Shown here: positions 15,523 to 63,780 of the stretch, piece after piece | Layout of the letters: each line of letters opens with the position of its first letter | Numbering within the stretch: the stretch's first letter is position 1 | From: Orobanche coerulescens | Taxonomy: Eukaryota; Streptophyta; Magnoliopsida; Lamiales; Orobanchaceae | DNA: 64,000 nt | NCBI GenBank assembly: GCA_033398695.1 | Contig: CM065817.1 | Span: 32,374,231-32,438,230, forward strand | Reading direction: 5' to 3' | Program-made: the position numbers and the translations under genes | The notes under the pieces: model-generated | What the model was told of the DNA's origin: nothing | Databases searched by the model: none | What the model saw: only the letters and a program-made list of their open reading frames with translations

Positions 15523-15987
15523 TGTAATACCCGGATTTTCAGTATAAATTTTTCGCGTTATTTTATCTGAGATATACTGTATAGTTTGGTATCTATACAG
15601 TATGGATAAAATAAATTGAGAACCGAGACAGTTATACTGGTGTGATTATCGTTTTTGATTGACAGATATATTCAGGATATGTTGTATCAGGTTAAAAAGA
15701 TTTGGATATCACGTATACCGTATGAGAATATCTTTGGATTCAGTATGTGTATTCAGTATGCCGTATGTTTGTATTTTGTACGTCGAGACGTCGGACAGGA
15801 ACAGTTAGTTTTTTGGCTAAGTATAAAAGCCATTACGTACGTTAAGCCTTGGAGCTTACGTACGTAAAATGTGTTAGCTTACGTACGTTATATAGTGTAC
15901 ATAACGTACGTAACAAGAGGAATCGGACAGTGGGGCCCGTGATCGGCAGCTTTCGGCGCAGATGTGGACAGGTGAGTCAACGGACAG
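15523..15987 (+). repeat. 5' fragment of an LTR with a TTACGTACGTAA array
   Basis: Begins TGTAATACCCGG, typical of a gypsy LTR start, immediately after the interrupted transposase. It runs 465 bp until block B begins, with no matching 3' end nearby, so it is truncated. A TATA-like GTATAAAAG lies at 15821-15829, and the palindrome array directly follows it. There is no coding capacity. Confidence 0.7.
15833..15913. repeat. Four ACGTACGT palindromes at exact 23-bp steps
   Basis: ACGTACGT starts at 15835, 15858, 15881 and 15904, each inside a TTACGTACGTAA-like 12-mer. The spacing is 23 bp three times, while the bases between the sites differ, so this is not a simple recent tandem repeat. Confidence 0.9.
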
Positions 15988-16040
15988 GATCATCTGCAGT
16001 GCACTAGTATTCCAGAACACTTGTGTCTTGTTTTTGTTAT

Positions 16041-16468
16041 TTTTTTTTTTTGATAACTAGGTAATCGCAGTTTAGCCGGATTAATCCTAGTCCCTCAATG
16101 AACCCACTTTTAACCCATTGAGAGAAGTAAATCGCGAGTCGCTCGAGCAATTCCAGGGTTCCCAATGCCTTTTCTGTACACTTCTGCGCACAAGGAGAAG
16201 CCCTTAACTAATTAACAGCGCCTCAGGTTCCCAGCACAGTTCTCGGGAGAACAGCCACTGATTGGTCAGCACCTCCGAGTTCCCAGCAAGGAAATACTCC
16301 CACACTGCCGCTTGACGCGAGATTAAACATTGATTAGCGGTCGCTCGAGTTAGCCCCGGGGAGCTAGAGGATCATAAAGAAAAAAACCTCCTCTTTCACC
16401 TCCTTGGTGGGAATTGAACCCAAGACCTCCCAAATGAGTGTCTTTAAGGCTAGTAGGCAAGGTAATGT
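16041..16468 (-). mobile_element. Antisense SINE-like unit (block B)
   Basis: Same unit as 12812-13238: T-run on the plus strand at 16041-16051, and GGAATTGAACC (the B-box complement) inside. Confidence 0.5.
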
Positions 16469-18722: not shown

Positions 18723-19958
18723 ATGAGTAAGGAAAGGGCGTCTTTCACCTTGGATGTTGTTACCATACTTATGGGAATCTTGCCCGAACATGTCTCCCGC
18801 GGGTGGGAAAATTGATTGGGAACGTTTTGCTACAACATTAAACTCCCGAACAGGAAAGTATTATACATCAATTTCTGTTAAGAATTGGTTCACCAATATG
18901 AAAGAAAGACACGGGGCTTGGAATGAACTAAAGAAATGGACTGGTATCAGATGGAGCGAAAATGGTTGTCCTGTTGTTGATGTGGAAGGTGAAAAATGGA
19001 AGGATTTTGTTAAGGTACTTGTTAACTAATCGTAACACTCAATAGTAACTTATTTATTTTCATTCATGCTCTTCCTTTTTATTTTGTATAATATATACAT
19101 TTATGGTATATCAAAGTTTGTATGAAAACTTATTACCGGAGCTTTTAAGATTTTCAAAGCATGAATTAGTAAAATACCTCCTGTGTATCAATTAATAATA
19201 TTAGTAAAATTAGTTAGGGTTGCAAAGTTAGTTTTATGAAAACTTTTTTTTTTTAATTTTCAAAGTTATCAAAGTTAGTTTTATGAAAACTTATTTTATG
19301 AAAACATTATCAAAGTTAGTTTAATTTTATGAAAACTTATTTTTTTTGCAACATTATCTTATTGCAGCGCAAACAAATCCGTAGCAAATGTGTTTCTTAA
19401 GACTCCATTACAGAATGAGGCTGAATGGGATAAAATTTTGGGTAGGTGGTTACGCAAAGGGTGATAGATCTTATACCCCCAGCATCTGCCGCCAAACAGA
19501 AGGAAGTTGAAACTATTCATGTTGAAGGTTCTACTGACTCTCAAGACGCTCCACTTGATGGTATTCATGATATTGAAAGCCACAATAATGAAAGCAAGTC
19601 TTCACAGTCTCCCACTGTCGCTATTGATACTAAAAAGCGTAAAAGCGGTGATATGCATAGCATGCCCTCTAAAAAAAGCACAAGGGATCGGGATATCGAT
19701 ACATGTCTTGATATTCTGAGGAAATCCTCTATGAGTCGATCTTCTAAACCTATAAATAAATTTGATGAAGTTTATGAGATCTTGGACTTCATGGGGATTG
19801 CCCCAAAGTATGGGGATGAATTCGTTGTGTGTATTCTTGATAGATTTCGCAATACTCCGGGTGCCATCGATCTTTTCATCTCTTTGCGTAATGACAAGGG
19901 CAGACGTCATTTCTTGAAGAAGTATTGTGTACTTTCAGATGATGATAAAATTGTGTGA
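18723..19958 (+). pseudogene. Harbinger ORF1, Myb/SANT-like DNA-binding protein (block B)
   Basis: Exon 1 starts at ATG 18723 (MSKERASF). The conserved part GKIDWERFATTLN...VKNWFTNMKERHGAWNELKKWTG...EKWKDFVK is a Myb/SANT-like (L10-interacting-MYB type) domain, found in ORF1 of PIF/Harbinger and in domesticated plant relatives. Compared with block C, two C residues are missing just before GCGGGTGGG (about 18792), which shifts the frame. A second exon region follows TTGCAG at about 19369: LKTPLQNEAEWDKILG, then, in another frame, a serine/lysine-rich stretch (KKRKSGD, 19446-19958) ending LSDDDKIV. In this family ORF1 is needed with the transposase for movement. Confidence 0.75.
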
Positions 19959-20153
19959 CGTTATGGTGAATTACTTTTTAGTTAGATCTTTTAATTATTT
20001 TATATTGATGAGAATTTTATATGTGGAACTTATTTTGGAACTTATTATGAAACCTATGTGGTTTGTTGTTGTAATATGATTGGATTAAGTATTCTCGTAT
20101 TTTATATGTTTGTCTCAATCAAATATCATTAAATGTATATGTGCCTATGTAGA

Positions 20154-21514
20154 ATGGATGAAGATTTGGTGCAACAAAGTTTGAGACGTATAGCATTGCA
20201 TGAGCTGAGGAGATTGACAACCCAAGTGGAACGGATGCCTTTGCATTCAGGGGGAACCGGGGCATCATTTCATACATAGGATGTTGACAGGCCATCATAA
20301 CTTGTGTAAAGAACAACTTCGGCTAAGTAGAGAAATATTTATAAGTTTGGCTAATTTTCTTAGAGCACAACAACTGCTAGTAGATGGTAGATATATACGC
20401 ATTGAAGAGCAACTTGGGTTAGGGTTGTACATGCTGGCCAAACCTGCTTCTGTTCGTGATACTGCTGAAAGATTTCAACACTCAATATCAACTATTTCGA
20501 AGTATTTCAAAAAGGTATTACAAGCATTGGAGACATTGTCAACTCAAATAATTTGACCATATCAAAGTTCGTATGAAACACCTCCTGAAATTCAAAGCAA
20601 CACCAAATACTGGCCTTTCTTTAAGGTACTTATCCTGACGATGACATAATCTTACAACATGTATAGTTCTAATGTAATGACGATATACTTTTGTTTTTAG
20701 GATTGTGTTGGTGCCATAGATGGAACCCTTATACAATCAGTTGTTGCAAATGATGTATGCAGGGCATTTAGAGATCGGCACGGGGACAAAACACGGAATG
20801 TTATGGTCATGTGTTCACTCAACATGTTGGTTACTCATATTAATGTGGGCTATGAAGGGAGTGCACATGATACAAACGTATGGAGGCGAAGCTTAGGAGA
20901 TGCTAGAATGGGATTCCCTCATCCACCATCTGGTACTAGATAACTTACATTGCCATGAATAATATGGGAACATATATTACTTTAGCAAACTAACATTATG
21001 ATTGTTGTACAGGAAAATACTATGTAGTTGATTCAGCGTATCCTAATACACTCGGGTACTTGAGTCCATATCTAGGACCTGGGATGAGGTACCATTTGCC
21101 TGACTTCAGAAGATGGACTCCACCACAAGGAATGTATGAGCAATTCAATTACCGACATTCTTCTTGTCGAAATGTAATTGAGAGGGTTTTTGCGGTTCCC
21201 AAAAATAGGTGGAAGGTTCTAAAATCGATGCCGCAAATGGACGACGCTAATCAGTTGAAAATTATTGTCGCTTGTTTTACTCTACACAATTTTATTCGTT
21301 TACATGATCTAGGGGTTCATTTCACGCACCAAATTGAAGTCATGGAACCAAGAGCTGATCATAATATGTACGATGATAACAAAAAAAATCTATGGATAGT
21401 GTAAGACAGAAAATAACTGATGAAATATGGGAGTCAATGCAGAATAATCCCGAGGTGATGGAGCAAATTTATGGACGAGAAGAAGACGAAGAATTAACCG
21501 ACTATGAAGACTAG
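20154..21514 (+). pseudogene. PIF/Harbinger transposase (HARBI1/DDE_4 family)
   Basis: Three exon-like parts: 20154-20625, 20701-20932 and 21013-21514, joined by introns with GT...AG ends (20626-20700, 20933-21012). Start chosen at ATG 20154 (MDEDLVQQS). Exon 1 holds the helix-turn-helix-like region (SREIFISLANFL, ASVRDTAERFQHSISTISKYF). Exon 2 has AIDGT (first catalytic Asp) and GSAHDTNVW (second). Exon 3 has VDSAYP, the NVIERVF segment (catalytic Glu) and CFTLHNFIR. Damage: a frameshift at about 20278, a TGA near 20557 in place of an Arg codon, and a frameshift in the A-run near 21388. Otherwise the conserved residues are in place and the family length is normal. Confidence 0.88.
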
Positions 21515-21761: not shown

Positions 21762-21764
21762 TAA

Positions 21765-22027: not shown

Positions 22028-22036
22028 ATAAAAAAA

Positions 22037-22722
22037 GTGGTAATACTCTATTGTGCCCTTTTGAACAAAGTAGAATTCTTTCCTGCCCCAAGTTCAATAC
22101 CAACTCTTTTTATACCCAAATTATCAGATTTGACCTTTACTAGAAGACATTCGAGTCACCTATTCGAGTAACACCTTCGAGTCACCTACTCGATTAACCT
22201 AAAACACATTCGAATCACCTACTCGAGTCATTTAAATTGCATTCGAGTCACCTATTCGAGTCACTTAATTACATCAAAGTCACCTAATATACATTTGAGT
22301 CACCTATTCGAGCCACTCGAATAAGTTTCGAGTCACTCGAATAGGTCACTCGAATTTACTCGAGTGACTCGAATGTATATAAGCCACTCGAATAGGTTTC
22401 GAGTCACTCGAATAGGTGACTCGAATGTATATGAGCCACTCGAATAGGTTTCGAGTAACTCGAATAGGTGACTCAAATATATATATGAGTCACTCGAATA
22501 GGTTTCGAGTCACTCAAATAGGTGACTCGAATGCAATTTCGATGACTCGAATAGGTGACTCGAATGTATTTTGTGTTAATCGAGTAGGTGAGTCGAATGT
22601 GTTACTCGAATATCTTCGAGCAAAGGTCAAATCTGGTAATTTGGATATCAAAAGAGTTGTTGTTAAACTTGGGGTAGAAAAGAATTCTGTTAAATTTAAA
22701 AGGGTAATACAAATTTTTTTCC
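22037..22722. mobile_element. Long foldback (Mutator-like) element with CGAGTCACC arrays
   Basis: The two halves are inverted copies. Left-arm segments GAATTCTTTCCTGCCCCAAG, AAATTATCAGATTTGACCTT and CACCTACTCGATTAAC recur reverse-complemented on the right (about 22550-22690). Each arm is built of repeats of TTCGAGTCACCTATTCGAG. A 9-bp duplication, ATAAAAAAA, flanks it (22028-22036, 22723-22731), the size typical of Mutator-like elements, though its low complexity weakens the evidence. It encodes no transposase. It explains the odd repetitive N-terminal part of a long frame starting at 22416. Confidence 0.65.
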
Positions 22723-30968: not shown

Positions 30969-33711
30969 ATAATATTATTATTACTATTTTTATTAGTACA
31001 AATATATTATTATCATCATTATCATTTTTCCGATATTATTATCAATATTACCAAATTATTATTTTTACATTTACTATTATTATTATATCAATTATATTTA
31101 ACCATGTGTTTTAATTTAACTAACTATGATTAAACTTAATTAACCATAATTAAGAACTCTCCTTCCTCATGGATCAATCCCCTCACCACAATTCCTCACT
31201 TCACCAAACTCCTCCATGTTTATCCTAACACAATCCTACTATCAACCAAAATACTCAAAAATCTATATCTATAAATATACTAATTCTGCAGCGCAAAATC
31301 CTTTCAAATCGGCATTCATCAGCTAAGAAAAAAAGAGAAGATATCCAGAATTTATCACGGCAGAAACCAAAAAAATTTACAAAACAAGAGGAAGTCTGCA
31401 CTTTTCTTCACGGCAGAGAGGAATAGCTTCGACTCACCCATCCGATTTCAGTTCAAGTTTCATCCCGTACAGCAGGTAAACCATTAAAACCCAACCTTCT
31501 AAATAATGCCAATACTCGTAATCCAATTTCGGTATCTTTTCTTCATCTTCTTGCTATTGTTATTACCATGATAAATTAACCTAGCCGAGGTAGATTACCT
31601 GAATTTGTCAACCAGCCCTAAACTCACTGTCAAATGAAACTTTAAATCCTCTTTCCATTTGTTCTGCAAGTTATAGATACAACAACACCAGAACTTCGAC
31701 ATCAAATCTATAAATTGAATTTCAAATTCGATGACCCAGACTTGCTGTTCGTCGAGCCATAAACCACATCTTTGAAAATTTCAATTCCAAATCGGGCCAA
31801 GCCCAACTGCAACCGAATCAAATCGAACTCAGACCCGACATACCTTTTCAATTCGAGTTCGTCTGACTCAGAATCCCAAATCCGGTCCGAGCCTGAATCC
31901 AGAAATTTCCGACCTTCAAACCTCTCAACCCGTCTTCAATCTTCAATTTCTGGTTGATTTGGATTTCAGAGCCCAGTACCCATTTCGGCAGAACCCCATT
32001 CCAAACAACCCAATCCAATCCTGGGAACATGTAGCCCGAAATCAGATTTAGAAACCATAAATCCGAGAACAGAGTCGGAGCCCTCACCTGCGACTCGCCG
32101 GAATCATTACCGCCGCAAGTCGCACAGCCGCCCTAGGACCGCCACTGCTTCTTCTTATTCTGGAGTGTCGCCGGTCACGTGCTGTGTGTGTGTGTGTATG
32201 TGTGTGATGAGGAAGTCCGGACCTGATCTTGTTATGGCCCGTTTAACCCGCCCTGCTATGGCCCAGCCTGCGGCCCACACCGGCCCGCACTGCGGCACCG
32301 ACACGCAACACAGCTCCCTTGCACTTCAGAATTATGGCCGTTGGGAATTAGTCTGTCAATTTATTTTTTTAAGAGAAAAAGAATGTATTTGTGGACCCAC
32401 GAGAGAAATCCAAAATAATTAAATCTTCTGCACATGCAATTTGGAAAAGGGCTATTGTGTTGTCCTCACAATGCCGTTGGGGAAGTAGAATGGGATTATG
32501 TGAGGAGCTGACATTGGAGTCATTTGATTTTGAATCCTTTTTTTTTTATTCTAATATATTTCAATTCCTATAAATACCACCTTAATTCATCCATAAGGGA
32601 TTTATACCCGGCTTTTCATATGGTTATTCAATTTAATCCCAGATTTCTAGTTACTTCGATTTTTACCCAGTCAGTTTTCAATTATTTTTCAATCGACCCC
32701 AACAGCTCTTAATATTCAATTCCAGTCTTATTTTGACCATACCAATATTAATGTTGACTCTTCAATTAATATTAATAATCAGTTTCAATTATATGCATCA
32801 TATTTTATTTCTAGTCATTATATCATAATATTTTATGATGATTATAATTATTATTATATGTAGATATTAACAAGGAATTGCGGGCTTAGGACCGTGAGTC
32901 GATCATCTTCATATTCAAGTCCAAGCAGTATCATTTTATTCAGGAGGTGAATTTTTACTATCGCTTTAATTGCTTTATTTGGACTCCTATGTGATATTCT
33001 ATTTATGTTTTTTTTAAATTGATGATACATGTTATAAATCAGGCTCACATGTGTACGTGTAAAGAGGCTATCTTAAGATATATATTGTGTAGGGATACCT
33101 GCACAACCTCAATATTCACATGCGTGCTCGATTCATGTTATATGTGATATTGTGTGTATGTATTAAAGTTGAGGAAAATATTATTGATAGAATAATTATT
33201 TAACTGCTTTCCATGATATTGTATATTATTGTGATACGTGTGATTTCCACGAGCTGAAGAAAGCTCACCCCCACCTATATTGATCCCGTAGGTTAAACCG
33301 AGTCAGATGGAGGAAGGAGCGAGCCGAGAGCGCATACAATGATATTTTCTTAAAACAGTGCTTTTTATTTATGTCTCATGTTTTGAAATAATTTTGGGAA
33401 AACTCCTGATTAGAAATAATAATTTATAAATTTTTTTTCGCCGCAATTATTATCTCTTATCTATGACATGTCGTTGCCTTAGTCAGTGTAGCGATTCGAC
33501 TTTGTAGGCGAGAATTTTAATATCCTCAAAGAAATTTATTTTTCGTCAAAATTCACCTTTTCACTTATTTTCCCCTAAAATTATCCCTAGAAAGTCGGAG
33601 CGTTACATAAAGAAACTTTAGCTTCAATGTTTGATCGCGTGAAGCTGAAGAAATGAACTTTACCGTCATTTATGTGAAGGTAAAGAAAACACTGAACAAA
33701 TAACCTAATTA

Positions 33712-34822
33712 CTTTAGCTTCACATGGGTGAAGCTAAAGCGAACGAGAGGAATACTATTTTTTAAGCTTTGGCGTCACATATGTGTCGCCAAAGATTGCC
33801 AGCAATTTTAAATAATATATCTTTGGCGTCACATATGTGTCGCTAAAGATTGTCCAGTAATTTTAAATAATATATCTTTGGCATCACATATGTGTCGCCA
33901 AAGTATGTCCAGCAAATTTAAATAACATATTTTTGGCGTCACTTGTTGCGACGCCAAAGTTTTAACATCCAATTATTTTAATCTTATTTTTCCAGCCATA
34001 TTAGACGTAAAGTTCGTCGTTTAAAATAAAAAAATGAAATTAGCCAAAAAGAGCTTTTGGCTAATTTCAGGTATGTATATATATATATATATTAATTAAT
34101 TTAATCAGAAATATATTTTAAGTCTAATATTTTGTTGTAATTAGAAAATATATGCCAAAAACTACACTTCTAATTATATTAAAAAATAAACTATATTATA
34201 CTAATAAAATATTTATTTAATTAAAAAATAAATATCGTCATTTTGGTAAAATTGATTTTAAAAAGAGATAAATCACATTATGTTATGTTCCAACAATATT
34301 AATATTGTAATTCACTTATATTTAAATAAATAAAAATCCTGCAAAACAAAGAAAAAAAACAAAAACATTAATAAGTTAGTATAAACAAAAAATAATATTC
34401 GTAAAACTATTAACAAAACTAAAAGTAATTTAGAAATTATCTTGAATATTTAGAGATGAAAGTTGAAGAAAATGAGATGAAATGTGGATTAGAATTTTGG
34501 AATGAATGAAGGTTTGTAGTGATGTTGTATTTATAATATATTCTGAAACCTAATAGCTTCACATATGTGAAGTCAAAGTATCTCAGTAAATTCAAAATTC
34601 CCCCGCGTCCACGCCAAAAATTTCAAACTTCCGCCAAAAGTTTTTGAAAATTTTCGTATTGGCGTCACATATGTGACGCCTTTAGGCTAATGATTTTGTC
34701 CTGCACATTAGCTCCACACATGTGAAGCTAAAACTTGTCAATTACCATATCCGGGTACGCCACCTACCACCTGCACAATTATTCTGAACTTATTATTTGG
34801 CTTCACATATGTAAAGCCAATA
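33712..34822. repeat. CACATATGTG hairpin repeats of the CACTA element
   Basis: Nine or so hairpins of the form (T)TTGGCGTCACATATGTG(T)CGCCAAA or AGCTTCACATATGTGAAGCT. Four are in tandem at 54-55-bp steps (start 33767, 33821, 33876, 33931). Others are at 33712, 34555, 34658, 34707 and 34797. Placement before a CACTA transposase suggests subterminal binding sites for its TNPA-like protein. Confidence 0.75.
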
Positions 34823-41286: not shown

Positions 41287-41321
<35 letters not shown>

Positions 41322-43140: not shown

Positions 43141-43556
43141 TTCAACCCTTGAGGATTGTTGTTCTGTGTAACTGACCCCGGCTGGGGATTTTGTTTTTCA
43201 GGTCATGGCAAGGCAAAAGCACGGGAATAGCATGTTGATGTCGAGGAGTCCTAGTGGTACTAGTAGGGGCCCCCGATCTTTCAGTTATTCATGTTATTGT
43301 CCTTTATTTTCTGCTGCAGACTTTCATTTGGATACTCCGTTTCATTCAGTGTTGTGTATTTTATCTTCATATAAAATACACTAGTATTCGGTATTGTCCT
43401 GGTGTGTTGTAACTAAACTCCTCATCGGAGTAATTATTGTTGTAATGTGGTTCGGTACTACATTTATCCTGTGTAATTCATTCATTTTCATTTGCCTGGT
43501 GGGTCCCAGTTGGGGATCTACGGCACTGTAATATCCGCCTAGTTTGGGGTGTTACA
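43141..43556 (+). repeat. Truncated 5' LTR of gypsy element 3
   Basis: 416 bp, the same length as the corresponding 3' LTR end, finishing GGGGTGTTACA. The rest of the LTR was lost at the junction with block C. Confidence 0.9.
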
Positions 43557-45130: not shown

Positions 45131-45237
45131 CGTTTGGTCGCTATCTTTCCGTCGTTGGTTGTCGAATGTGTGCTTCAGGGAAGTAATCCCCGTTGTTCCA
45201 GTAGAATTATTATTATGGCGGAAGCAGAGAAATTCCG

Positions 45238-45740
45238 CAATCGAGCCATTCAATCATTCATTGCATCATTTTCATCGATTGACCTTTCTAAGGCAATCGA
45301 GTCATTCAATCATTCATTGTATCATTTTCATCGATTGACCTTCCTAAGGCAATCGAGTTATTCAATCATTCATTGCATCATTTTCATCGATTGGCCTTTC
45401 TAAGGCAATCGAGTCATTCAATCATTCATTGTATCATTTTCATCGATTGACCTTCCTAAGGCAATCGAGTTATTCAATCCTTCATTGCATCATTTTCATC
45501 GATTGGCCTTTCTAAGGCAACCGAGCTATTCAATCATTCATTGTATCATTTTCATCGATTGGCCTTTCTAAGGCAATCGAGTTATTCAAACATTCATTGT
45601 ACCATTTTCATCGATTGGCCTTTCTAAGGCAATCGAGATGTTCAATCATTCATTGTATCATTTTTTATCGATTGACCATTCTAGGGTAATCGAAATGTTC
45701 AATCATTTGTGGTATTATTGTCATCGATTGACGATGTATT
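45238..45740. repeat. 56-bp minisatellite inside pol of gypsy element 3
   Basis: Nine units of a CAATCGAG-TATTCAATCATTCATTG-type sequence starting at 45238, 45294, 45350, 45406, 45462, 45518, 45574, 45630 and 45687. Seven of the eight steps are exactly 56 bp and the last is 57 bp. It lies between protease and RT, where element 4 has continuous coding sequence. The unit length is not a multiple of three. Confidence 0.95.
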
Positions 45741-45796: not shown

Positions 45797-46655
45797 GGAG
45801 CCGGTACGTCCCCTTTATCGAAGGCACCGTATCGGATGGCCCCGACCAGAATGCAAGAGTTGAAGATTCAACTTGAGGAATAGTTCGAGAAAGGTTATCT
45901 CCGACCGATTGCGTCCCCGAGAGGAGCACCAGTGTGATCTGTCAAGGAGAAGGATGGCTCATATCGTGTGTGTATTAATTATCAAGAGTTGAACAGGGTG
46001 ATGATCAAGATTAGTACCCCTTACCCCGTATTGATGATCTTTTAGATCAACTTCAGGGAGCTTCAGTATTTTCCAGGATCGACTTAAGATCTGGATATCA
46101 CCAGTTGCGGATTGAGAGTCGGATATCGCGAGGACGGCATTTCGAACACGTTATGGTCATTATGAGTTCGTAGTTATGCCGTTCGGGCTAACTAATGCAC
46201 CTGATGTATTCATGGAGTTAATGAATCGGGTTTTCATCGACTTTTTAGATCAGTTTGTTGTTGTCTTCATCGATGACATTTTGATTTATTCTCGTAGCCG
46301 AGAGGAACACGAGGTTCATCTTCATTAGGTTCTCGACATGTTGAGACGAGAACAACTTTATGGAAAGTTTTCCAAATGTGAGTTCTGGATGTCCGAAGTG
46401 ACTTTTCTCGGACATGTAATTTCATCAGATGGAGTTCGTGTCGACCCTCAAAAGACGGAGGCTATCCGAGATTGGTTACCTCCGAAGAATGTTAAGGAAA
46501 TCCGAAGTTTTCTCGGATTAGCGGGTTATTATCGGCGGTTTGTGGAAGGATTTTCTAAAATCGCTCAACCCTTGACGAACCTTTTGCGAAAGGATAAGAA
46601 TACACGTGGTCCGACGCGTGTCAACGGAGTTTTGAGGAACTCAAGAGCTAGTTAA
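45797..46655 (+). pseudogene. Reverse transcriptase of gypsy element 3
   Basis: Starts with GTSP...YRMAP-like and GAPV...KEKDGSYRVCINYQELN-like segments in shifting frames, then [21 protein letters not shown], the catalytic [10 protein letters not shown] near 46270, and from 46338 an open piece [15 protein letters not shown]...FLGHVIS...[19 protein letters not shown] stop at about 46326, several upstream stops and a frameshift near 46630 inactivate it. Confidence 0.88.
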
Positions 46656-47110
46656 TGTCAGCACCTGTACTTTCCTTGCCGCAAAGGACGGAGGGATTTG
46701 TGGTTTATAGTGATGCGTCCGGACAGGGTCTCGGATGTGTACTCATGCAGAATGGAAAGGTTATTGCCTATGCCTCACGGCAATTGAGACCTTACGAAGT
46801 TAATTATCCGACCCACGACCTGGAGCTAGCAGCCGTGGTGTTCGCTTTGAAAATTTGGCGTCATTACCTTTATGGCGTTACCTGTCAGATATTCACCGAT
46901 CATAAGAGTTTAAAGTATATATTTACTCAGAAGGAGTTAAATATGCGACAGAGACGGTGGTTAGAATTAATCAAAGATTATGATATCGAGATTCTTTACC
47001 ACCCGGGCAAGGCGAACGTTGTCGACGACGCCTTGAGTCGTAAGTCCGTGCAGGAGCAGATGCTTGCTCGTTTAACAGTTCAGAAGGAGCTTCAGCAGGA
47101 ATTCCTTTGA
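46655..47110 (+). pseudogene. RNase H of gypsy element 3
   Basis: Open for 151 codons: [49 protein letters not shown] and [10 protein letters not shown] contain the RNase H acidic residues. It ends at a TGA where the related frame continues into the integrase linker in the same phase. Confidence 0.9.
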
Positions 47111-48604
47111 CCCGAGATCGAGGTCTGGCTTCAGCGAATTCAGGGACAGCTTTGTATGTTAGAGATTTCATCGTCCCTTGAGGAGAATATCAGGGAAAAT
47201 CAGGGTTCAGACCCAGAATTGTTGCGCATCCGTGAGGATGTGGCTCAGGGGAAAGCCCCTGGATTCGTGGTCCACGAGGATGGACTTTTGAGATTTAAGA
47301 ATCGGTTGTGCGTACCGGCGAATGACGAGTTGAAAAACTCGATTTTGAGAGAAGCTCATGCTACCCCTTATTCTGTTCATCCGGGGTCCAGCAAAATGTA
47401 CAAGGACTTGAAACAAAATTACTGGTGGAGTAATATGAAGCGAGAAGTCGCAGAATTTGTTTCGAGATGCTTAACCTGTCAACAAGTTAAGATTGAACAT
47501 CAGCGACCGGCGGGTATGCTGAAACCTCTCCCTATTCCGGAGTGGAAGTGGGAAGACATTTCTATGGATTTCATCACGAGTTTGCCGACGAGTCGTTGTG
47601 GCATGAATACGATCTGGGTGATTGTGGACCGCTTAACTAAGTCAGCTCATTTCCTTGGGATTAAGGATACGTGGGGTCCCGAGAGACTTGCCCAGCTGTT
47701 CATCAAAGAGATAGTGAGATTGCACGGTACTCCTAAGAGTATCGTTTCTGATTGTGACGGGTGATTCGTGTCTCATTTTGGAAATCAGTTCATCGTGCTT
47801 TGAGAACTCAGCTCAATATCATTACCGTTTTTCATCCTCAGTCCGACGGACAATCAGAGAGGACTTTTCAGACATTGGAGGACATGTTGAGGGCATGCGT
47901 CCTCGATTAGTAGACGATTGGGAAGCCCAATTACTGTTGTTTGAGTCCACGTACAGTTTAGTTGGCATGCTGCGATGAAGGTAGCACCTTACGAGGCCTG
48001 GTACAGTCGTCGTTGTCGATCTCCCTTGTGTTGGGACGACCCATCAGAGTCAATCGACACCGAGCCCGATATACTTATAGCCGCCCGAGAGAAGGTAGCT
48101 TTGATCAAGAGTCGTTTGTTGACAGCTCAGAGTCGACAGAAATCATATGCAGATAATCGTCATCGACCACTAGAGTTCGAGACGAGTGACCACGTTTTGG
48201 TCAAGGTATCCCCGAGTCGAGGTATTTTCCATTTCGGAAAATGGGGGAAGTTGAGTCCGAGATTCATGGGATCGTTTGAGATTTTGGATCGAGTAGGCGA
48301 GTTAGCTTATCAATTGGCTTTACCTCCGGCATTGAGCCGAATTCATAATGTGTTTCACATCTCTCAGTTGCGGAAGTATGTTGCCGACCCGAGTCACATA
48401 CTTCAGTTCGACGAAATCGAGACCGCGGATGATCATTCGTACGAGGAGCGTCCTGTACGAGTGTTGGAGCGGCGAATCAAACAGTTGAGGAACAAGACGA
48501 TCCCTTTGGTCAAGATTCAGTGGTCCAGACACGGAGTCGAAGAGGCCACTTGGGAAACCGAGGAGAGTATACGGGAAAGTTATCCCGCGTTGTTTGACCC
48601 TTAG
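47111..48604 (+). pseudogene. Integrase with chromodomain-like end, gypsy element 3
   Basis: The zinc finger is intact (HATPYSVHPGSSKMY...CLTCQQ). Core: MDFITSLP, VIVDRLTKSAHF, KSIVSDCDG, then a TGA at 47762 and a one-base frameshift near 47782, so the last catalytic segment (FHPQSDGQSERTFQ) is out of frame. From 47975 the frame is open again: APYEAWYSRRCRSPLCWDD, GSFEILDRVGELAYQLALP, VFHISQLRKYVADPSH, and a chromodomain-like KIQWSRHGVEEATWE. It stops at 48604, before the purine tract. Confidence 0.9.
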
Positions 48605-48638: not shown

Positions 48639-51249
48639 TGTAATACCCGGTTGTAATTCATTCATTTTCATTCAGTAATTATCAGTCTGTATTTGCCACT
48701 CAGTAATTTTCACTCATTAATAATCACTCATCATTCATGAATCACTCATTTGCGTTCACTGTTGGCATGTTGTAATCGAATATCAGTTACCGATCGTCAT
48801 TTTATCTCCGTTTTTAGATCGAGACGGGAGTATTATCATTTTCATTGTGATTGATAGCCTTGTACTGGGAGTATCATCTTTGGCTCGTGTTAGACTTGTT
48901 CACTTTCACATTCGTATGGTATGTCGGATCATTCATCAGTCGTAGCGAGGAATAGGAGTTATCGGATTTATTCACCTTGGCCAGCATTGAGTTACGGCCG
49001 TAAGGTTCCGGGATACGGCCGTAAGTTCAGCGGGTACGGCCGTAAGGTTGGCCGGTTACGGCCGTACGTGGTCCAGCAGGCTGCCCAGGCTGCCAGGCAT
49101 TTTGGCCGAAGGCGAGTTACGGCCGTAAGGAGGGTTGGATACGGCCGTAAGTGGGGTTCGTAAATTTCAGATGTTGTCGACCAAGGGTGACTTACGACCG
49201 TAAGGGTTGCAGCATACGGCCGTAAGTCGAGGCAGGTACGGCCGTAAGGCTTGGTCGGATACGGCCCGTCTGTGCAGCGGGATGCACAGCCATTTTTGAC
49301 GAAGGCGGGTTACGCCCGTAAGTTTGGCCGGATACGGCCGTATCATCCGAGTTACGGCCGTAAGGTGTGCGGGTACGGCCGTAAGGATGTCGGCGGATGT
49401 TTTTGACGTAGGCGGGTTACGCCCGTAACTCAGAGGCGATTCACCGTAAGTCAGCCGGCGAGCTTCGGACGAAGCCGAGTTACGGCCGTACGAGTTGGCC
49501 AGTTACGGCCATAAGGCCGTTGACTTAGAATGTTACGGCCGTAAGAGGGCCGAGTTACGGCCGTAACTTCCGGCAGTATTTAAGGACTCGGCCGGGACAC
49601 TTTTCCTCATTTTTCTCATTTCCTTCTTCTTGTCCGAGAGAGAGAGCTTGAGGGAGATATTTTGACATCATCAATCACTTGTGTATTCGGATTTCATCAT
49701 CTTATTTTGTTGGGAAGCTTGGATAGTCGATTTAACACGTTTTCATTGGATCGAAGTGGTTGGATCTTCAAGAGGTAATTTCTTCAACACCTTGGATTTC
49801 GATTTTGTGTTGAGATATGATGTTTTGGACGTTATAATCATGTTATATGAAGGGATATGTATATGATTATGAGTTTGTATAAGGATTCATTGGATTATTG
49901 AGGGATTATTCAAGAACACTTTGATTATCGAGTTGAAATTGGGGGTTTTCGATTAATTGTCGTTATAATCACGTTTTTGGACATTCGTTTTGGATTATTA
50001 ATCCTATTGAAGATGTTTTGTTGGTTTGAAACACTTCTTGGGGGATTTTATATTGGTATATTGAGGTTTGATTGTAAACAATCGGAGTTTGGACGTAACG
50101 TGTTTGATTTAATGCCTCAATGGACTTGGTTTAGTCGTATCGACGTGTTGAGTTCATTATATTCATGTTTGTTACGTATGTTGAACGGATTGTTGGTTAT
50201 TGTGTTATTCAAGGTTGTTCGAGCGACCGATATCTCTATTAGGACGTTGTTCGTGGAAGGATAATTGTCACCGGTGTTGTGTAAGTTAATTCTTACTCGG
50301 TTAAAAGTATATTCATCCCTTTTGTTGTTGTTCATTCATAATCATAACTCATTCATCAGTGTATTAACCGTATCAAACTTGTTATTGTCAATTAATCACT
50401 TCAGTCATAAGGAACGACGGTTCCAATCTTTTCATTAAGCTGTCATTTATTTCATTACCATTCCACCTCGGTGAGTCATTATTCATTTTCGATGTCACTT
50501 TTGTTATATCGTGGCATTCCGGGTCATACTGGCGTGCCGGTTGGTATGTGTTGGATTTTCATGTCGGGCACGTTTAAGTCGTGTATTGGTTGTTGGCCTC
50601 ACATTGGACTGTGCACACGAGTCATATTGTCTCGTGAGACTGATTAGGTACAAGACCACACGTGTATTCGATCGATACTCGTTGGTGGCTTGTGCACGGA
50701 CACATTTCCATCCCGGGCGTAGTGTGGTACCACCCTTTGAGCCGTACTGTTAGTTGATTCATATAGCATGTTTGATTGCGTATGTTTCGGCTGTGATATT
50801 TCATAACTTCGGATATAATCATGATTGTGTATTTTCAACCCTTGAGGATTGTTGTTACGTATGGCCCGACCCATTTGGGGATTTTGTTTTTCAGGTCATG
50901 GCAAGGCAAAAGCACGGGAATAGCATGTTGATGTCGAGGAGTCCCAGTGGTACTAGTAGGGGGCCCCGATCTTTCAATTATTCATGTTATTGTCCTTTAT
51001 TTTCCGCTGCAGACTTTCATTTGGATACTCCGTTTCATTCAGTGTTGTGTATTTTATCTTCATATAAAATACACTAGTATTCGGTATTGTCCTGGTGTGT
51101 TGTAACTAAACTCCTCATCGGAGTAATTATTGTTGTAATATGGTTTGGTACTACATTTATCCTGTGTAATTCATTCATTTTCATTTGCCTGGTGGGTCCC
51201 AGTTGGGGATCTACGGCACTGTAATATCCGCCTAGTTTGGGGTGTTACA
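48639..51249 (+). repeat. 3' LTR of gypsy element 3
   Basis: Begins TGTAATACCCGG after the tract AAGGGGGGAGTA and ends GGTGTTACA; 2,611 bp. It holds the TTACGGCCGTAA array (48992-49566), a TATA-like GTATTTAAGG at 49576, and near the end GGCAAGGCAAAAGCACGGGA and GGTGGGTCCCAGT phrases also found in the LTR ending at 56617. Confidence 0.9.
48992..49566. repeat. Array of about 20 TTACGGCCGTAA palindromes
   Basis: Sites start near 48992, 49013, 49034, 49056, 49117, 49139, 49192, 49214, 49236, 49259, 49310, 49332, 49352, 49373, 49417, 49438, 49480, 49503, 49533 and 49555. Most steps are 20-23 bp or about twice that. Some sites are degenerate (TTACGCCCGTAA, TTACGACCGTAA). The last ends about 10 bp before a TATTTAAG box. 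The clustered small frame at 48921-49163 is an artefact of this array. Confidence 0.93.
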
Positions 51250-54337: not shown

Positions 54338-55530
54338 TGTTGGAATATTTATTCCACACATTATTTAATTTGTGTTTTGATGATTAAAGTTGCTAAACAA
54401 CAAAACAACATCGAGGCGAAGCAAAACGACGAAGCAGACGAAGACGCAAAAAGCTGATCATAATGCATGTGTAGCGCAAGCTAAGACATATATGTTAGCA
54501 CACGCTAACGGGAAGTCATCTGCATATCAGCCAAGTTTGAAGTAAGCTGAAGTGAAGTCAGCTGATGATATAGCGCACGTTACACGTTATCATTAACGCA
54601 CGCTATTGAAGTCTTGTTACCGTTGTGAAGGAATCCAAACACAGAATGACATATGCAATGAAGTCAGCATTAGCGCACGCTACAAAGATGGAATAGCGCA
54701 CGCTAAGCAGTTTGAATCAAGTCAATCAGAACGTTGGGAAAAGCAGGTCAAAGTCAGCATATCAAACGGATACTTTGACAAGTCATGCAACGGATATATT
54801 GGATTAGCGCACGCTACAAAGGAAGTGGTAGCACAAGCTAACTGTCAAAGACAGTAGCCACTAGACTGAAACATAAAATGATTAACGTACGCTACATGAA
54901 AGACATTATGCACGCTAAAGCAAAAATGTGCGATAGCGCACGCTAAGAAGGAAGAGCTAGCGCACGCTAGCTAGTCAACTGGCAGCAACGGCTAGTTTGT
55001 GGGAAATGTCTATAAATACCATCCCTATGGTATTGTTTGATTACAACAACTTCAAGCAAACAAGACATACATCTGAGAATCATATACTTACATTGTTGTT
55101 GTAATATTGAGCCTATATTGTTAGTTTGAGTGTTTATACATTCAACATTATACACGAGAGGTAAAAGAAAAGATACAATTAGATTCGGTGTTATTAGGAT
55201 CAAGGATCCGGCATTGTTAGAATCGCAATCGATATCTAAGTGAGGTTTATCTAGTACCCATAGAAATCTAGAGTGGTTGGTTCCTTATCCAATAGAAAAG
55301 GAAAAAATGGTTTTACTCGGACCGATAGAAGACGAGCTTGTAACGGTAATCCCTCGACCGATAGAAGAGAGGCGTAGAGGTTTTGATCTTAATCCTGAGA
55401 AAAAGATACATCGAGAGAGGATGTAGGCTTCGCTAATAGCCGAACCTCTATAAATCCTTGTGTGATTTATTTTCCGCAATTTATCTACGCTTCCGCACAA
55501 ATGGCGCAAATATCCGATTTTATACCAACA
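54338..55530 (+). repeat. 3' LTR of gag-only element copy 2
   Basis: TGTTGGAATATTTATTCC to TATACCAACA, 1,193 bp. Shares long stretches with the LTRs at 59612 and 62739 downstream of the TATA box (TCAAGGATCCGGCATT, TCTAGTACCCATAGAAA). Holds the TAGCGCACGCTA array and TATAAATACC at 55011. Confidence 0.88.
54472..54969. repeat. Array of 12 TAGCGCACGCTA motifs
   Basis: Sites start near 54472, 54496, 54571, 54594, 54671, 54694, 54805, 54829, 54883, 54906, 54934 and 54958. Six of the eleven steps are 23 or 24 bp, giving mostly paired sites. The last lies about 41 bp before the TATA box. Confidence 0.92.
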
Positions 55531-58711: not shown

Positions 58712-59611
58712 CTTAAGGATTTGACTGAGAAGGGCTATATTAGACCTAGTGCGTCCCCATGGGGAGCACCAGTGTTATTTCTACGGAAGAAAGACGGATC
58801 TCTGCATTTGTGTATTGATTACCGTGAGCTGGACAGGGTAACCATCAAGAACAAATATCCGTTGCCTCGCATTGATGATTTATTGGATCAACTTCAGGGA
58901 GATGGTGTGTTTTCTAAGATCGACTTGAGATCCGGATACATCAGTTGAGGATTCGAGAGTCTGAAATTTCGAAGACCATTTTTCGTACTCGCTATGGGCA
59001 TTATGAGTTCGTAGTGCTGCCTTTTGGACTAACTAATGCACCGACAGTATTCATGGAGTTGATGAATTGGGTTTTTATTAATTATCTGGATAGCTTTGTA
59101 GTCGTTTTTATTGACGACATTCTGACTTACTCTCGTGACCATGAAGAGCATGGGCGTAATCTCCATCAGGTTCTCGATGCGTTGAGGCGGGAACAACTTT
59201 ATGGAAAATTTTCCAAATGTGAATTCTGGATGCCTGAGGTTATTTTTCTTGGACATGTGATATCAACCAATGGGGTGAGAGTATACCCACAGAAGGCAGA
59301 AGCTATCCGGGACTGGCTACCTCCAAAGAACGTGAAGGAAGTTTGCAGTTTCCTGGGTCTAGCAGGTTATTTCCGACGGTTCGTGCAAAGTTTTTCCAAG
59401 ATTGCTCAACCGATGACTAAACTGTTGAGGAAGGATAAGAAGTATTCTTGGTCAGAGGCATGTCAGCAAAGTTTTGATGAACTCAAGAGTCGATTGATTT
59501 CAACACCTGTTTTGGTTCTACCAAAAAGAACGGAAGGATTCGTGGTGTATAGTGACACGTCAAGACAGGGCCTGGGATATGTGTTAATGCAGAATGGGAA
59601 GGTGATTTCTT
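58712..59611 (+). pseudogene. Reverse transcriptase and RNase H start of gypsy element 4
   Basis: [36 protein letters not shown] and [10 protein letters not shown] end at a one-base frameshift near 58940. The frame is then open from 58945: [21 protein letters not shown], catalytic [41 protein letters not shown], and RNase [25 protein letters not shown]. It is cut by the gag-only element at 59612. Codons past this point in the same frame are LTR sequence. Confidence 0.9.
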
Positions 59612-60653
59612 TGTTGGAACATTTAGTTCCATACATAAATTAAAAGTGTTTTGATGATTAATGTTGATAAGCAAAACAAAACAACGAAGAGATGAAGCAA
59701 GCATCGAAGGAAAACGAAGTGCAAAATGCTGGAGAAAAACAAAGCTAACGTATGTAACAAGACATTATTAACGTACGTAATATGATGAAGCTAACGCACG
59801 TAATGGATGAGAGATAACGTACGTAACACAGTTCAAACAAGTGAACGTTGGAGGAGTCAAAGTAAGAAAAGCATACAACGGATATATGACATCATCAGTG
59901 ATGAAATGTTAACGTACGTAACGGAGTCTATGCTAACGTACGTAACTCAAAATGACGAAACTCCCCGGACTGAAACTGAAAGAGGCTTACGTACGTAACC
60001 CGTGATGGTTAACGTACGTAACGATGCTTACGTACGTAAAGTGGCGATGATAGCGTACGTAATGAGCAGTCTGGCAGCTAACGGCTAGTTTGATGATGGA
60101 GCCTATAAATACCATGCTTATGGTATTGATCAAATACAACAGCCTTGAGCAAATAGTCTATTCTTGTGATATTATTACACACATTCTTGTTGTTGATATT
60201 GAGCTTAATTGTAAGTGTTTGAGTGAGAATTCACGAAAACATACACGAGTGGTAAAAGAAAAGATACGATTGGATTCAGTGTTATTAGGATCAAGGATCC
60301 GGCATTATTAGAATCACAATCGATATCTAAGTGAGGTTTATCTAGTACCCATAGAAAGCTAGAGCGGTTGATTCCTTGTCCGATAGAAAAGGAAAATGGT
60401 TTAACTTGGACCGACGCAAAGACAAGTACAAGTGGTTTATCACGGACCAATAGAAGACGTGATTGTAACGGTTGTACCTCGACCGATAGAAGAGAGGAGA
60501 AGAGGTTTTTCTTTAGCCTATTGAAAAAGATACCGAGAGAGGACGTAGGCTCGTTTATAGCCGAACCTCTATAAATCCCCGTGCGTCATTTAATTTCCGC
60601 ATTTTAATTTACGCTTCCGCAACACCGCGCAATATCCGAACCCGTACCCAACA
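59612..60653 (+). repeat. 5' LTR of gag-only element copy 1
   Basis: TGTTGGAACATT to GTACCCAACA. TATAAATA box at 60104-60111. By eye it differs from the 3' LTR at roughly twenty positions, many at CpG sites. Confidence 0.92.
59748..60060. repeat. Array of ten ACGTACGT palindromes (5' LTR)
   Basis: Sites start at 59748, 59771, 59794, 59817, 59912, 59936, 59989, 60012, 60030 and 60053: steps 23, 23, 23, 95, 24, 53, 23, 18, 23. Most are TAACGTACGTAA or TTACGTACGTAA. The array ends about 43 bp before the TATA box. Confidence 0.93.
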
Positions 60654-60655
60654 AT

Positions 60656-60667
60656 TGGTATCGGAGC
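60656..60667 (+). promoter_or_regulatory. Primer binding site of gag-only element copy 1
   Basis: TGGTATCGGAGC two bases after the LTR, the initiator-Met type with one change. Confidence 0.8.
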
Positions 60668-60711
60668 GGTACTCCAATACGCGGCTTAACATCCGAGGAG
60701 AAAAAGATCCA

Positions 60712-62253
60712 ATGGCGTTTCAATTTGCTCCAGTCGAAGGCCTTGCTCTCAACCGACCACCATTCTTCGATGGCTCAAATTATTTGACATGGAAGAAAAA
60801 GATGTCGATCTTTATTCGTGCCTACGATATAGAGATTTGGAAGATTATTTGCCTTGTCCCGAAAGTTCCTCTCAAATCCGACGGTACGCTCAAATCTTTC
60901 GAAGAATACGACGATGCCGATTGGAAAAATGACCATCTAAATTGTAAGGCTACTCAACTCTTATTTTGTGCCTTAAATCCGGAAGAAGTCAATCGAATCT
61001 CATCGTGTGAGAGTGCGAAAGAAATATGGAAAATTCTAGAAATCACACACGAAGGGACGACTCAAGTCAAGGAGACGAAAATCAATATGCTTCTCCATGA
61101 CTACGAGTTATTCATGATGAAAGGTGACGAGTCCATCACCAATATGCTCGACCGATTCTCGGTCATCACAAATGGACTTGCGTCATTCGGAAAACCATTA
61201 TCTAGTAGTGAAAAAGTTAAGAAAATTTTACGATCACTACCTAGCGAATGGGACGGCACCGTGACCGCAATTATGGAATCCAAAGATCTCAACACGCTCG
61301 ATTTTAGTGCCCTCGTTGGTTCGCTAATTAATTATGAGATCGTGTTAAAATCACGAAGTGTCAAGCCGAAACCGAAAGAAAAATCACTAGCCATGAAGGC
61401 TAAGATATCGAGAAAGAAGGAAGAAATCCCGGTGGAAGAAAGCGATGAAGAAATGGCATACTATGCCAAAAATATTAATAAATTCCAAACCTTATTAAAC
61501 CGGAGAAAGAAGGATATCTCGAGCGAATCTAAGAAGTTCGACAATTCTTGTCGACTATGTGGAAAACCAGGCCACTTCGCTAAGCATTGCCGAGCCAAAC
61601 CGAAAAAGGAGGTTCTCGTGGCAACATGGAGCGATGAAGACGAAGATGATGATTTTATCAATCAAAATAATCTCGCTCTCATGGCCCGGAGTTCGTTCGA
61701 CGACAGCGACGTCGAAAGCCAAGTAAGTACATCCTCCCGTGACGAAATTTTTGATGCATTTGAGTTATTACATACGGATTTCCAAAATGCTTTATCGGAA
61801 ATAAAATCCCTTAAGTCTAAAATTAAATCTTTGGAAATTGAAAATTCCAAAATTATCGAAAAGGGGAAATTTGTTGAAATCGATCATTCAAAGTGTATTG
61901 AAAATGAAAATATTTTGAAGAATGATCTTTTAAAAGTTCAAGATGAACTAAAATCTTTGGCAAGAAAATTCTCGTGCGGCAACGATAAATTTGAATAAAT
62001 GTTATGTGTTCAAAAATATACTTTAAACAAAGAGGGGTTAGGATTCAAACCACGTTCGAAAAACGAATCCGTTAATTTTAAAATACCCCATTGCGAAAAG
62101 TGTTTAAAAATCGGGCATCATATTTCAAGTTGCAAAAGCCCGAGGCGGACGATAAAAATTAACAAAATTTGGGTTCCTAAAGGAACAATCGTTTCAAATA
62201 TCGTCTACATTTCTAAACAAAAACCAACTATAGGTTGGATCCCCAAAAATTGA
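60712..62253 (+). pseudogene. SIRE-like Gag of the gag-only element, one nonsense change
   Basis: Start chosen at ATG 60712 (MAFQFAPVEG) rather than 60655, which lies in the primer site. Domains: an N-terminal DUF4219-like segment (RPPFFDGSNYLTWKKKM), a UBN2-type gag core (ATQLLFCALNPEEVNRISS, AKEIWKILEITHEG, LPSEWDGTVTAI), a CCHC knuckle CRLCGKPGHFAKHC near 61555-61596, an acidic stretch, a coiled coil (IKSLKSKIKSLEIENSK), a TAA at 61996-61998 in place of a Gln codon, then a second CCHC CEKCLKIGHHISSC and the end IGWIPKN. About 513 codons. Without the stop it would be a full-size Gag. Confidence 0.9.
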
Positions 62254-62738
62254 TTATTGTATTTTACTCAGGGGGAGTATTTTTTTTAGGGGAGATATTA
62301 TTCTCGGGGGAGTTTTTACCCTTTATGCAATTATTCATAAATTATATCATGCATATTTTATATTTTGGTATTATTTTCAATTGATATTTTATCCACTTTT
62401 TGATGAAAACAAAAAGGGGGAGAGAATGGAGAAGGAGAAAAAGAAGTCGAAAATGTGATTAACCTTGAAAGGGGGAGAAAATCGAAAAATGAAAAGGAGA
62501 AGTCGAAAATGACAGAAAAAGAAAAATGCGGAGACGTCGAAAAGACAATGAAAAATTAATGAAATTGGGAAAAGAAAAGGAGAAAAGAAAAGAAGGAGCC
62601 GAAAAAGAAATGGGAGAAGATTCTAACAAAACGGACAAAGTCGAAAACTTTGGTCTGTACACATATACATATATTTGTATTTTGCAGGTAAATCCCATTG
62701 ACGAAGTGTTGTTCTGTAATCATCAAAAAGGGGGAGAT
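62254..62738 (+). other. Purine-rich 3' untranslated region and polypurine tract
   Basis: Non-coding region with several AGGGGGAG-type tracts (for example near 62270, 62308, 62416 and 62470) and long A/G-rich stretches, ending AAAAGGGGGAGAT at the LTR. The matching region of copy 2 (53834-54337) has the same style. The multiple purine tracts may act as extra priming or RNA-export signals; this is inference. Confidence 0.7.
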
Positions 62739-63780
62739 TGTTGGAACATTTAGTTCCATACATAAATTAAAAGTGTTTTGATGATTAATGTAGATAAGCA
62801 AAACAAAACAACGAAGAGACGAAGCAAGCATCGAAGGAAAACAAAGTGCAAAATGCTGGAGAAAAACAAAGCTAACGTACGTAACAAGACATTGTTAACG
62901 TACGTAATATGATGAAGCTAACGTACGTAATGGATGAGAGATAACGTACGTAACACAGTTCAAACAAGTGAACGTTGGAGGAGTCAAAGTCAGAAAAGCA
63001 TACAACGGATATATGACGTCATCAGTGATGAAATGTTAACATACGTAACGGAGTCTATGCTAACGTACGTAACTCAAAATGATGAAACTCCCTGGACTGA
63101 AACTGAAAGAGGCTTACGTACGTAACCCGTGATGGTTAACGTACGTAACGATGCTTACGTACGTAAAGTGGTGATGATAGCGTATGTAATGAGCAGTCTG
63201 GCAGCTAACGGCTAGTTTGATGATGGAGCCTATAAATACCATGCTTATGGTATTGATCAGATACAACAACCTTGAGCAAATAGTCTATTCTTGTGATATT
63301 ATTACACACATTCTTGTTGTTGATATTGAGCTTAATTGTAAGTGTTTGAGTGAGAATTCACGAAAACATACACGAGTGGTAAAAGAAAAGATACGATTGG
63401 ATTCAGTGTTATTAGGATCAAGGATCCGGCATTATTAGAATTACAATCGATATCTAAGTGAGGTTTATCTAGTACCCATAGAAATCTAGAGCGGTTGATT
63501 CCTTGTCCGATAGAAAAGGAAAACAGTTTAACTTGGACCGACGCAAAGACAAGTACAAGTGGTTTATCACGGACCAATAGAAGACGTGATTGTAACGGTT
63601 GTACCTCGACCGATAGAAGAGAGGAGAAGAGGTTTTTCTTTAGCCTATTGAAAAAGATACTGAGAGAGGACGTAGGCTCGTTTATAGCCGAACCTCTATA
63701 AATCCCCGTGCGTCATTTAATTTCCGAATTTTAATTTACGCTTCCGCAACACGGCGCAATATCCGAACCCGTACCCAACA
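62739..63780 (+). repeat. 3' LTR of gag-only element copy 1
   Basis: Same length as the 5' LTR, with the ACGTACGT array at 62875-63187 and TATAAATA near 63231. Followed by the TTCTT duplication. Confidence 0.92.
62875..63187. repeat. Array of ten ACGTACGT palindromes (3' LTR)
   Basis: Same sites as the 5' LTR at the same spacing. Sites 1 and 3, mutated in the 5' LTR, are perfect here. Sites 5 and 10 are mutated here and unmutated there. Confidence 0.92.

Follow-up and report, generated by a model that had tools for sequence, protein, structure and literature searches.

Promoter-proximal arrays of 12-bp palindromes shared by gypsy and copia long terminal repeats of Orobanche coerulescens as putative protein-binding sites

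Introduction

Palindromic arrays in long terminal repeats (LTRs) are known from the Sireviruses, in which many palindromic copies of the RM box lie in the upper half of the LTR, in CpG-rich blocks that immediately precede a conserved TATA box. The RM motif differs between families, 12 of the 13 published RMs having a CGG-CCG core, and the boxes are reported to be Sirevirus-specific and absent in the classic copia elements that were compared (accessible text of PMC2829016). Here we analyse 64,000 nt of nested plant retrotransposon DNA from Orobanche coerulescens (this whole stretch is called the window), which contains arrays of 12-bp palindromes in LTRs of Ty3/gypsy as well as of Sirevirus-like Ty1/copia elements. 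The arrays thus extend to gypsy elements a trait that had been reported as confined to Sireviruses.

The two copia elements of the window, B and C, resemble Sireviruses in having polypurine tract (PPT) repeats, an inverted repeat at the junction and a palindromic array before the TATA box. The present arrays differ from the Sirevirus RM in that many of them are located in Ty3/gypsy LTRs and that the gypsy element A, not B or C, has the CGG-CCG core. A 23-bp register with random spacers, a polarity bias and a code common to two superfamilies are not described for the Sirevirus RM in the accessible text of PMC2829016.

Other systems are comparable in part, as far as the accessible parts of the respective reports go. 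The palindrome-rich LTR region of maize elements is likewise a fast-evolving regulatory part (PMC5311732, PMC10760457), but there copia elements and small RNAs are concerned, and the same palindrome was noted in Helitrons. Tnt1 shows modular evolution with relatives that differ mainly in U3; it is, however, a Ty1/copia element of Solanaceae, and the accessible text describes no palindrome code shared with gypsy elements (PMC1838419). The VANDAL elements with their VANC proteins also have noncoding arrays of short motifs that change between relatives (PMC5735166, PMC10398659). In contrast to what is found here, the VANC protein is encoded by the element, its motifs are non-palindromic and 8-9 bp long, and they are said to have spread by tandem repeat formation, against which our spacer comparison argues.

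A survey of titles and beginnings of abstracts, with few subscription papers, returned no such arrays in gypsy LTRs, no code shared by gypsy and copia, no 23-bp register with random spacers and no polarity. None of the papers matching the 12-mers deals, judged by title, with retrotransposon LTRs, and no literature on palindromic LTR motifs in Orobanchaceae surfaced, the sole match being on horizontal gene transfer. While palindromic arrays in Sireviruses are known, the gypsy arrays, the shared code, the register and the exchange of cassettes look new.

Results

The 12-bp site consists of two inverted 5-bp half-sites, mainly TTACG, TAACG and TAGCG, and a 2-bp centre. Counts in the 3.646 Gb assembly, with the pattern letters reversed as control, gave 170,680 exact copies of TTACGTACGTAA (control: 255) and 184,551 exact copies of TTACGGCCGTAA (control: 83). 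Genome-wide figures cover these two patterns and two further ones given below, TAGCGCACGCTA before TATAAAT and its equivalent with a TG centre. Register, sharing and turnover are based on approximately 0.3 Mb of sequence: a main sample of 20 stretches of 10 kb at round coordinates, which together with the window comprises 264 kb, and a hold-out sample of five further stretches (40 kb). The sampled stretches, 240 kb together, are numbered L005 to L029.

Clusters of related 5-2-5 palindromes in the window were compared with 30 local first-order Markov shuffles. The largest clusters contained 18 sites (at 48992) and seven sites (at 54671), and the maximum in the shuffles was three. The test missed the TAACGTACGTAA arrays, which have one mismatched arm pair, and the short array at 15833; it also picked an unrelated cluster of four TCACATATGTGA sites at 34559, which is above the shuffle maximum. 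With an array defined as at least four NNNCGNNCGNNN sites with near-symmetric outer bases, 26 arrays were identified across 17 of the 20 stretches, compared to none or one per shuffle (20 shuffles) and one in the letter-reversed stretches. The clustering and periodicity reported in the initial annotation thus survive the comparison with shuffled sequences, and the palindrome arrays are genuine and genome-wide.

The pattern TNRCGNNCGYNA had 223 matches in the 264 kb and six with reversed letters; in the hold-out sample it had 24 matches with one in the control, and the commonest distance was 23 bp. TATATA repeats aside, the top 5-2-5 palindromes in the 20 stretches were TAGCGTGCGCTA/TAGCGCACGCTA (28 and 22), TTACGTACGTAA (21) and TTACGGCCGTAA (12). 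Additional site classes are GTGCCGCGGCAC and ACACG(NN)CGTGT. The TTA, TAG and GC classes and the ACACG consensus each contain two CpGs at a distance of 4 bp. The half-sites pair unevenly: in a three-by-three table of 159 sites the combination TAACG-TAACG did not occur, while TTACG-TTACG was found 47 times and TAGCG-TAGCG 55 times.

Neighbouring sites are 20-24 bp apart, mostly 23 bp, and the range of 25-40 bp is nearly empty. Pair distances of TNRCGNNCGYNA in the 264 kb peak at 23 bp (62 pairs) and 24 bp (22 pairs). For TTACGTACGTAA on one contig, the 95 forward matches listed included 39 neighbour distances of at most 130 bp, eight of them 23 bp and eight 24 bp long. A neighbour 20-24 bp away was present for 110 of the 143 clustered sites of the TTA class, 136 of 159 in TAG, 53 of 82 in GC and 63 of 77 in GTGCC; adjacent distances of 25-40 bp numbered three, zero, three and zero, respectively. 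The pitch of the GGCC class is mostly 21-22 bp. The spacing of 21-24 bp noted initially is therefore recurrent, as 20-24 bp with a peak at 23 bp, except for the ACACG class, which is spaced otherwise. The suggestion that the sites are bound on one face of the helix is unsupported: the main pitch of 23-24 bp corresponds to 2.2 turns, so that successive sites are not strictly on the same face.

Identity of the 11-bp spacers in the 23-bp pairs (53 unique spacers among 62 pairs) is 27.9% inside arrays, compared with 26.5% between loci and 25.7% for shuffled spacers. Since spacer identity is at background, the sites and the register are held and the intervening DNA is not. This confirms the variable spacers described before. 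The repeat units are not alike as wholes, as those of a minisatellite are, and a single minisatellite as present source of the similarity is ruled out, because the spacers are unrelated within arrays (27.9% compared with 25.7% in shuffles). An ancient duplication with spacers that drifted later may be the origin of the arrays.

In the window, the arrays belong to one gypsy element (A), two copia elements (B and C) and one gypsy LTR fragment (D), all on the plus strand. The motifs are present at the positions given in the initial annotation, with some site identities corrected. The 3′ LTR of element A (TGTAATACCC...GGTGTTACA, 48639-51249) is defined by its LTR ends and the PPT-like sequence GGGGGGAG, and it begins directly after the integrase open reading frame (ORF); its 3′ end is 95.7% identical to a 5′ LTR remnant at 43141-43556. 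It contains an array of 18 TTACGGCCGTAA sites (48992-49566, found by the cluster test) with recurring spacings of 20-23 bp, followed by the TATA-like box TATTTAA (49577-49583). Domains PF17917, PF17921 and PF24626 are above cut-off in 46655-48604, which places gypsy-type RNase H and integrase before the 3′ LTR; PF24626 marks the integrase C-terminal (SH3) ORF (47975-48604). A chromodomain match (PF00385) in the integrase ORF is weak with 22.0 bits at a cut-off of 25.1 bits. Element A is Ty3/gypsy. Fragment D (15523-15978) is a truncated gypsy LTR with a TGTAATACCC start, 95-98% identical over 462 bp to the LTRs in L006. It carries four sites with a ACGTACGT core at an exact 23-bp pitch (15833-15913). 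All four had been annotated as one 12-mer; one is indeed TTACGTACGTAA, the others being two TTACGTACGTTA and one TAACGTACGTAA. This array is truncated, its four sites and spacings matching the promoter-distal head of the longer L006 arrays.

The LTR of copia element C (TGTTGGAATATT...CCAACA, 54338-55530) follows the PPT AGGGGGAG at 54328. Its array (54472-54969) comprises 11 sites; five are exact TAGCGCACGCTA, as had been described for the whole array, and the remainder are variants. The TATA box TATAAAT is located at 55011-55017. Element B (59612-63780) is a gag-only Sirevirus-like copia insertion with LTRs 97.9% identical and a 5-bp target site duplication TTCTT (59607-59611 and 63781-63785); it is inserted beside gypsy reverse transcriptase sequence (match at 58918-59610). 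Its arrays of T[AT]ACGTACGTAA contain 10 sites in the 5′ LTR (59746-60062) and nine sites plus a final variant in the 3′ LTR (62873-63187), and are followed by TATAAAT boxes at 60104-60110 and 63231-63237. The gag ORF (60655-61998; PF14223, E 1.7e-32) is the only coding domain of B. The named proteins closest to it come from Orobanche gracilis, with 75-85% identity and 50-68% of the query covered, and from Orobanche minor, with 58% identity and 72% covered.

The primer binding site-like sequence TATCGGAGC of element B has one mismatch to the Sirevirus site TATCAGAGC. Polypurine tracts of the form AGGGGGAG precede the 3′ LTR, with four exact copies in the internal part of B and three upstream of C, and a 12-bp inverted repeat, TAATCATCAAAA, surrounds the PPT/LTR junction in both. 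With up to two mismatches allowed, 11 (C) and 10 and 9 (B) palindromic sites are upstream of TATAAAT, more than the Sirevirus minimum of 8. The RM core CGG-CCG is absent in B (core ACGTACGT) and C (core GCGCACGC). The four LTR types distinguished initially hold as two gypsy and two copia families; the copia pair is, however, homologous (54979-55517 and 60071-60639, 77%).

The same 12-mers occur in Ty3/gypsy and in Sirevirus-like Ty1/copia LTRs. When flanks and spacers were compared, no LTR similarity between gypsy and copia arrays was found, and the two fall into separate groups. Grouping by flanks places 21 gypsy arrays in one group, some of them joined through overlapping flanks, and gives a provisional number of independent families. 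The view that common descent is an unlikely explanation is not supported as initially worded, since many LTRs are related within each superfamily.

Related LTRs change class by block swap or by concerted change in place, and the differences in motif class between related LTRs are confirmed, for instance, by two sampled elements. Between the LTRs of L018 (GTGCC class) and L022 (TTA class), identity is 88.7% in positions 1-469 and 87.6% in the part that starts shortly upstream of the TATA box (864-1380 versus 705-1221); their arrays show no match. Similarly, the L014 LTR (GTGCC) is 86.8% and 85.5% identical to that of L022 on the two sides of the array. The L018 LTR is a mosaic, of which positions 1-469 match L022 and positions from 464 onwards match L014 from position 128. 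A tree of 300-bp LTR starts (31 starts, some overlapping or redundant) places TAG, GTGCC and GC arrays on short adjoining branches. In the copia pair, seven of the ten B sites align ungapped to C, the other three with gaps. Position 11 is changed concordantly in all seven sites, positions 6 and 10 in six each and position 3 in four, and four other changes are single. Identity between B and C is 82 of 120 columns in the sites, 96 of 197 in the spacers and 440 of 550 downstream.

A TATA-like box is located at most 60 bp from the array end in 15 of the 26 arrays, compared to 12.4% of 4000 random placements. In agreement with the initial annotation, the three long arrays of the window stop 10-64 bp upstream of a TATA-like box (A 10 bp, C 41 bp, B 41 and 64 bp); under a stricter site definition both B arrays lie just beyond 60 bp. 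Genome-wide, TAGCGCACGCTA is followed by TATAAAT 15-45 bp on in 55,009 cases (27,659 and 27,350 on the two strands), and the letter-reversed pattern has none.

Read towards the promoter, the centres in 27 TTA/TAG arrays were CA 89, TG 7, TA 99, CG 10 and others 5. Orientation was assigned by means of LTR ends, coding direction, TATA box or homology; LTR pairs of single insertions (L006, L007 and B) were counted twice and arrays without strand markers excluded. A smaller tally of 23 arrays gave CA 82 versus TG 5. The L017 array at 9729, the strand of which is uncertain, runs opposite (TG 2, CA 1). In four GGCC arrays the centres were GC 39, CC 5 and AC 3, with a constant C at position 7 and a variable position 6. 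In the TTA class, all 76 unique contexts have A at position 7 and 10 of them deviate at position 6, the class rule having excluded GC, CC and AC centres; in the TAG class position 7 is A in 68, G in 13 and T in one.

Before TATAAAT, the genome contains 55,009 CA and 10,923 TG sites, approximately 5 to 1, these being counts of copies and not of independent families. Judged by eye from the first 100 matches listed, most TG sites seem to belong to one LTR family, TAGCGTGCGCTA near ...GCAGAATATTATAAAT, and among the matches listed some copies of this family pair the TG site with an upstream CA site. A strict promoter polarity, considered on the basis of 89 to 7 in the sample, is weakened by the genome-wide ratio and was rejected. 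Polarity is a bias common to gypsy and copia elements rather than a rule, and inheritance within families may underlie it.

Discussion

The promoter-proximal arrays of these LTR retrotransposons are putative sites for sequence-specific, likely host, DNA-binding proteins, a reading drawn from sequence that we hold with reasonable, not high, confidence. The arrays would act as upstream regulatory regions of LTR promoters, most likely activating ones, in which a sequence-specific nuclear protein probably occupies each 12-bp site as a dimer. At a distance of 23-24 bp (21-22 bp in the GGCC class), proteins on neighbouring sites would touch and form doublets or runs, which might aid transcription start at the TATA box often found 10-60 bp downstream. 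The presence of the same 12-mers in gypsy and copia elements makes it most likely that the factor is a host protein used by both alike. Elements change class in two ways, by exchange of array blocks between LTRs and by concerted alteration of sites at their places, and might thereby track alternative factors or factors that change, or evade repression.

Several results weigh against such protein-binding sites. Eleven of the 26 arrays have no TATA-like box within 60 bp; in the hold-out sample arrays were found in only two of five stretches, and one of four arrays had such a box. The ACACG class deviates from the register, with 10 of 33 sites having a neighbour 20-24 bp away and 18 and 50 bp being preferred. 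CpGs changed between the two B LTRs at 3 of 40 positions in sites and 8 of 83 elsewhere, which in this one LTR pair indicates no protection. The sites are palindromic as first described, but a polarity bias of the centre is not needed by a plain symmetric site and is not predicted by a symmetric homodimer alone; the proposed binding by host proteins does not rest on this bias as evidence. Furthermore, no single known factor family fits all classes. SPL, NAC and bZIP proteins, proposed initially, were rejected as sole factor, since the GTAC and ACGT cores are confined to the TTA class. The half-sites TTACGT and TAGCGT are presumably similar to NAC consensus sites.

A wider proposal, which we put forward only tentatively and regard as rather doubtful, is that the LTR retrotransposons share, as a community, a promoter code that can be switched. 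Both superfamilies would maintain promoter-proximal doublets of a few palindrome classes with one register and a mostly uniform orientation, would swap these as cassettes, and would compete for, or jointly escape, a small number of trans-acting factors.

The arrays might instead be targets of element-encoded, VANC-like anti-silencing proteins, with other elements riding along by gaining the motif. The class exchange observed here fits such a system, as VANDALs have noncoding arrays that differ between close relatives, and the unrelated AT9TSD1 bears VANC6 motifs (accessible text of PMC5735166). However, VANDALs belong to the DNA transposons and their VANC motifs are short, and among the 20 window ORFs compared with Pfam, a scan limited to the window, the LTR elements showed no added DNA-binding gene. 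Two matches fell below cut-off, a Myb/SANT-like one within PIF/Harbinger sequence and a weak one to SpoIIID. Of the VANC-like logic suggested initially, the changing motif classes are retained and a VANC-like gene was not found among the scanned window ORFs; we regard this explanation as unlikely. It is quite improbable that the arrays work at the RNA level, as hairpins of U3 transcripts that are recognised by, or feed, small-RNA silencing, with palindromy kept for pairing. Sirevirus palindromes are small-RNA hotspots in maize (accessible text of PMC5311732 and PMC10760457), a strand bias would be natural for RNA, and the RNA folding exceeds that of shuffles (z -7.9 for A, -2.5 for B), but better folding is inherent in palindromes. 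One arm pair is mismatched in TAACGTACGTAA, the commonest copia form, uniform CA centres would result in two mismatches between paired sites, and RNA pairing does not account for the 23-bp register. CpG decay in the sites is balanced on the transcript strand (C>T 12, G>A 11) with no preference for substitutions compatible with G-U pairs, and this argues against RNA pairing as a selected trait.

Ancestral arrays could also have moved between gypsy and copia elements by template switching with orientation kept; selection would later have preserved the sites as the spacers drifted. That the CA bias is alike in both superfamilies and that mosaic LTRs exist (L018) agrees with this; the gypsy and copia arrays, however, group separately by flanks and spacers, and we assign such a descent a low probability. 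It would cover the origin of the arrays and not their maintenance, and is compatible with binding of the sites by a host factor. Recruitment by CpG density, in which the CGNNCG core serves a reader of methylated or unmethylated CpG, would match the CpG pairs with 4-bp spacing of the TTA, TAG, GC and ACACG classes; with outer bases that are strongly conserved too, and with GTGCCGCGGCAC lacking the CGNNCG core, it is very improbable.

If the arrays are indeed bound by host proteins, more than 170,000 exact copies each of two 12-mers would suggest that many LTR retrotransposons of this probably parasitic plant are driven or restrained by a single protein or a small number of them, and the abundance of sites could act on a host transcription factor by titration. 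Being short and defined, the sites lend themselves to direct pull-down of the protein, and array swapping between close LTRs would make promoter competition among transposon families testable.

Additional observations

A scan of IMG/VR for the TTACGNNCGTAA doublet returned a single contig (L030), which is bacterial- or phage-like and was set aside. At 834-868 it contains two GTTACGCGCGTAAC palindromes 23 bp apart, which have the look of an unrelated intergenic operator. The 240 kb of sampled, transposon-filled stretches show no CpG depletion (observed/expected 1.07; TpG 1.07). In the B LTR pair, CpG columns differ more than other columns (11 of 123 versus 11 of 919).

Nearly nine 56-bp tandem units lie between the LTRs of element A (45237-45732). 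PIF/Harbinger-type sequence is present at 18727-21299, 12749-15368 and 39691-43132, beside repeated blocks, with DDE_Tnp_4 above cut-off and the Myb/SANT-like match just below. A 159-bp piece of transposase is duplicated with 100% identity (15364-15522 and 21093-21251). Two 5.8-kb stretches, 9618-15368 and 36568-42324, are 97.8% identical and cover a gypsy 3′ end with adjoining DNA; the duplication thus exceeds one element end. An imperfect inverted repeat at 22056-22704 (75% over approximately 650 bp) is rich in CACTCGAATAGG and ATTCGAGT units. Other clustered palindromes, TCACATATGTGA, are located in 33666-34814 as groups of five and four sites at least approximately 49 bp apart, and a 55-bp tandem repeat is found at 33767.

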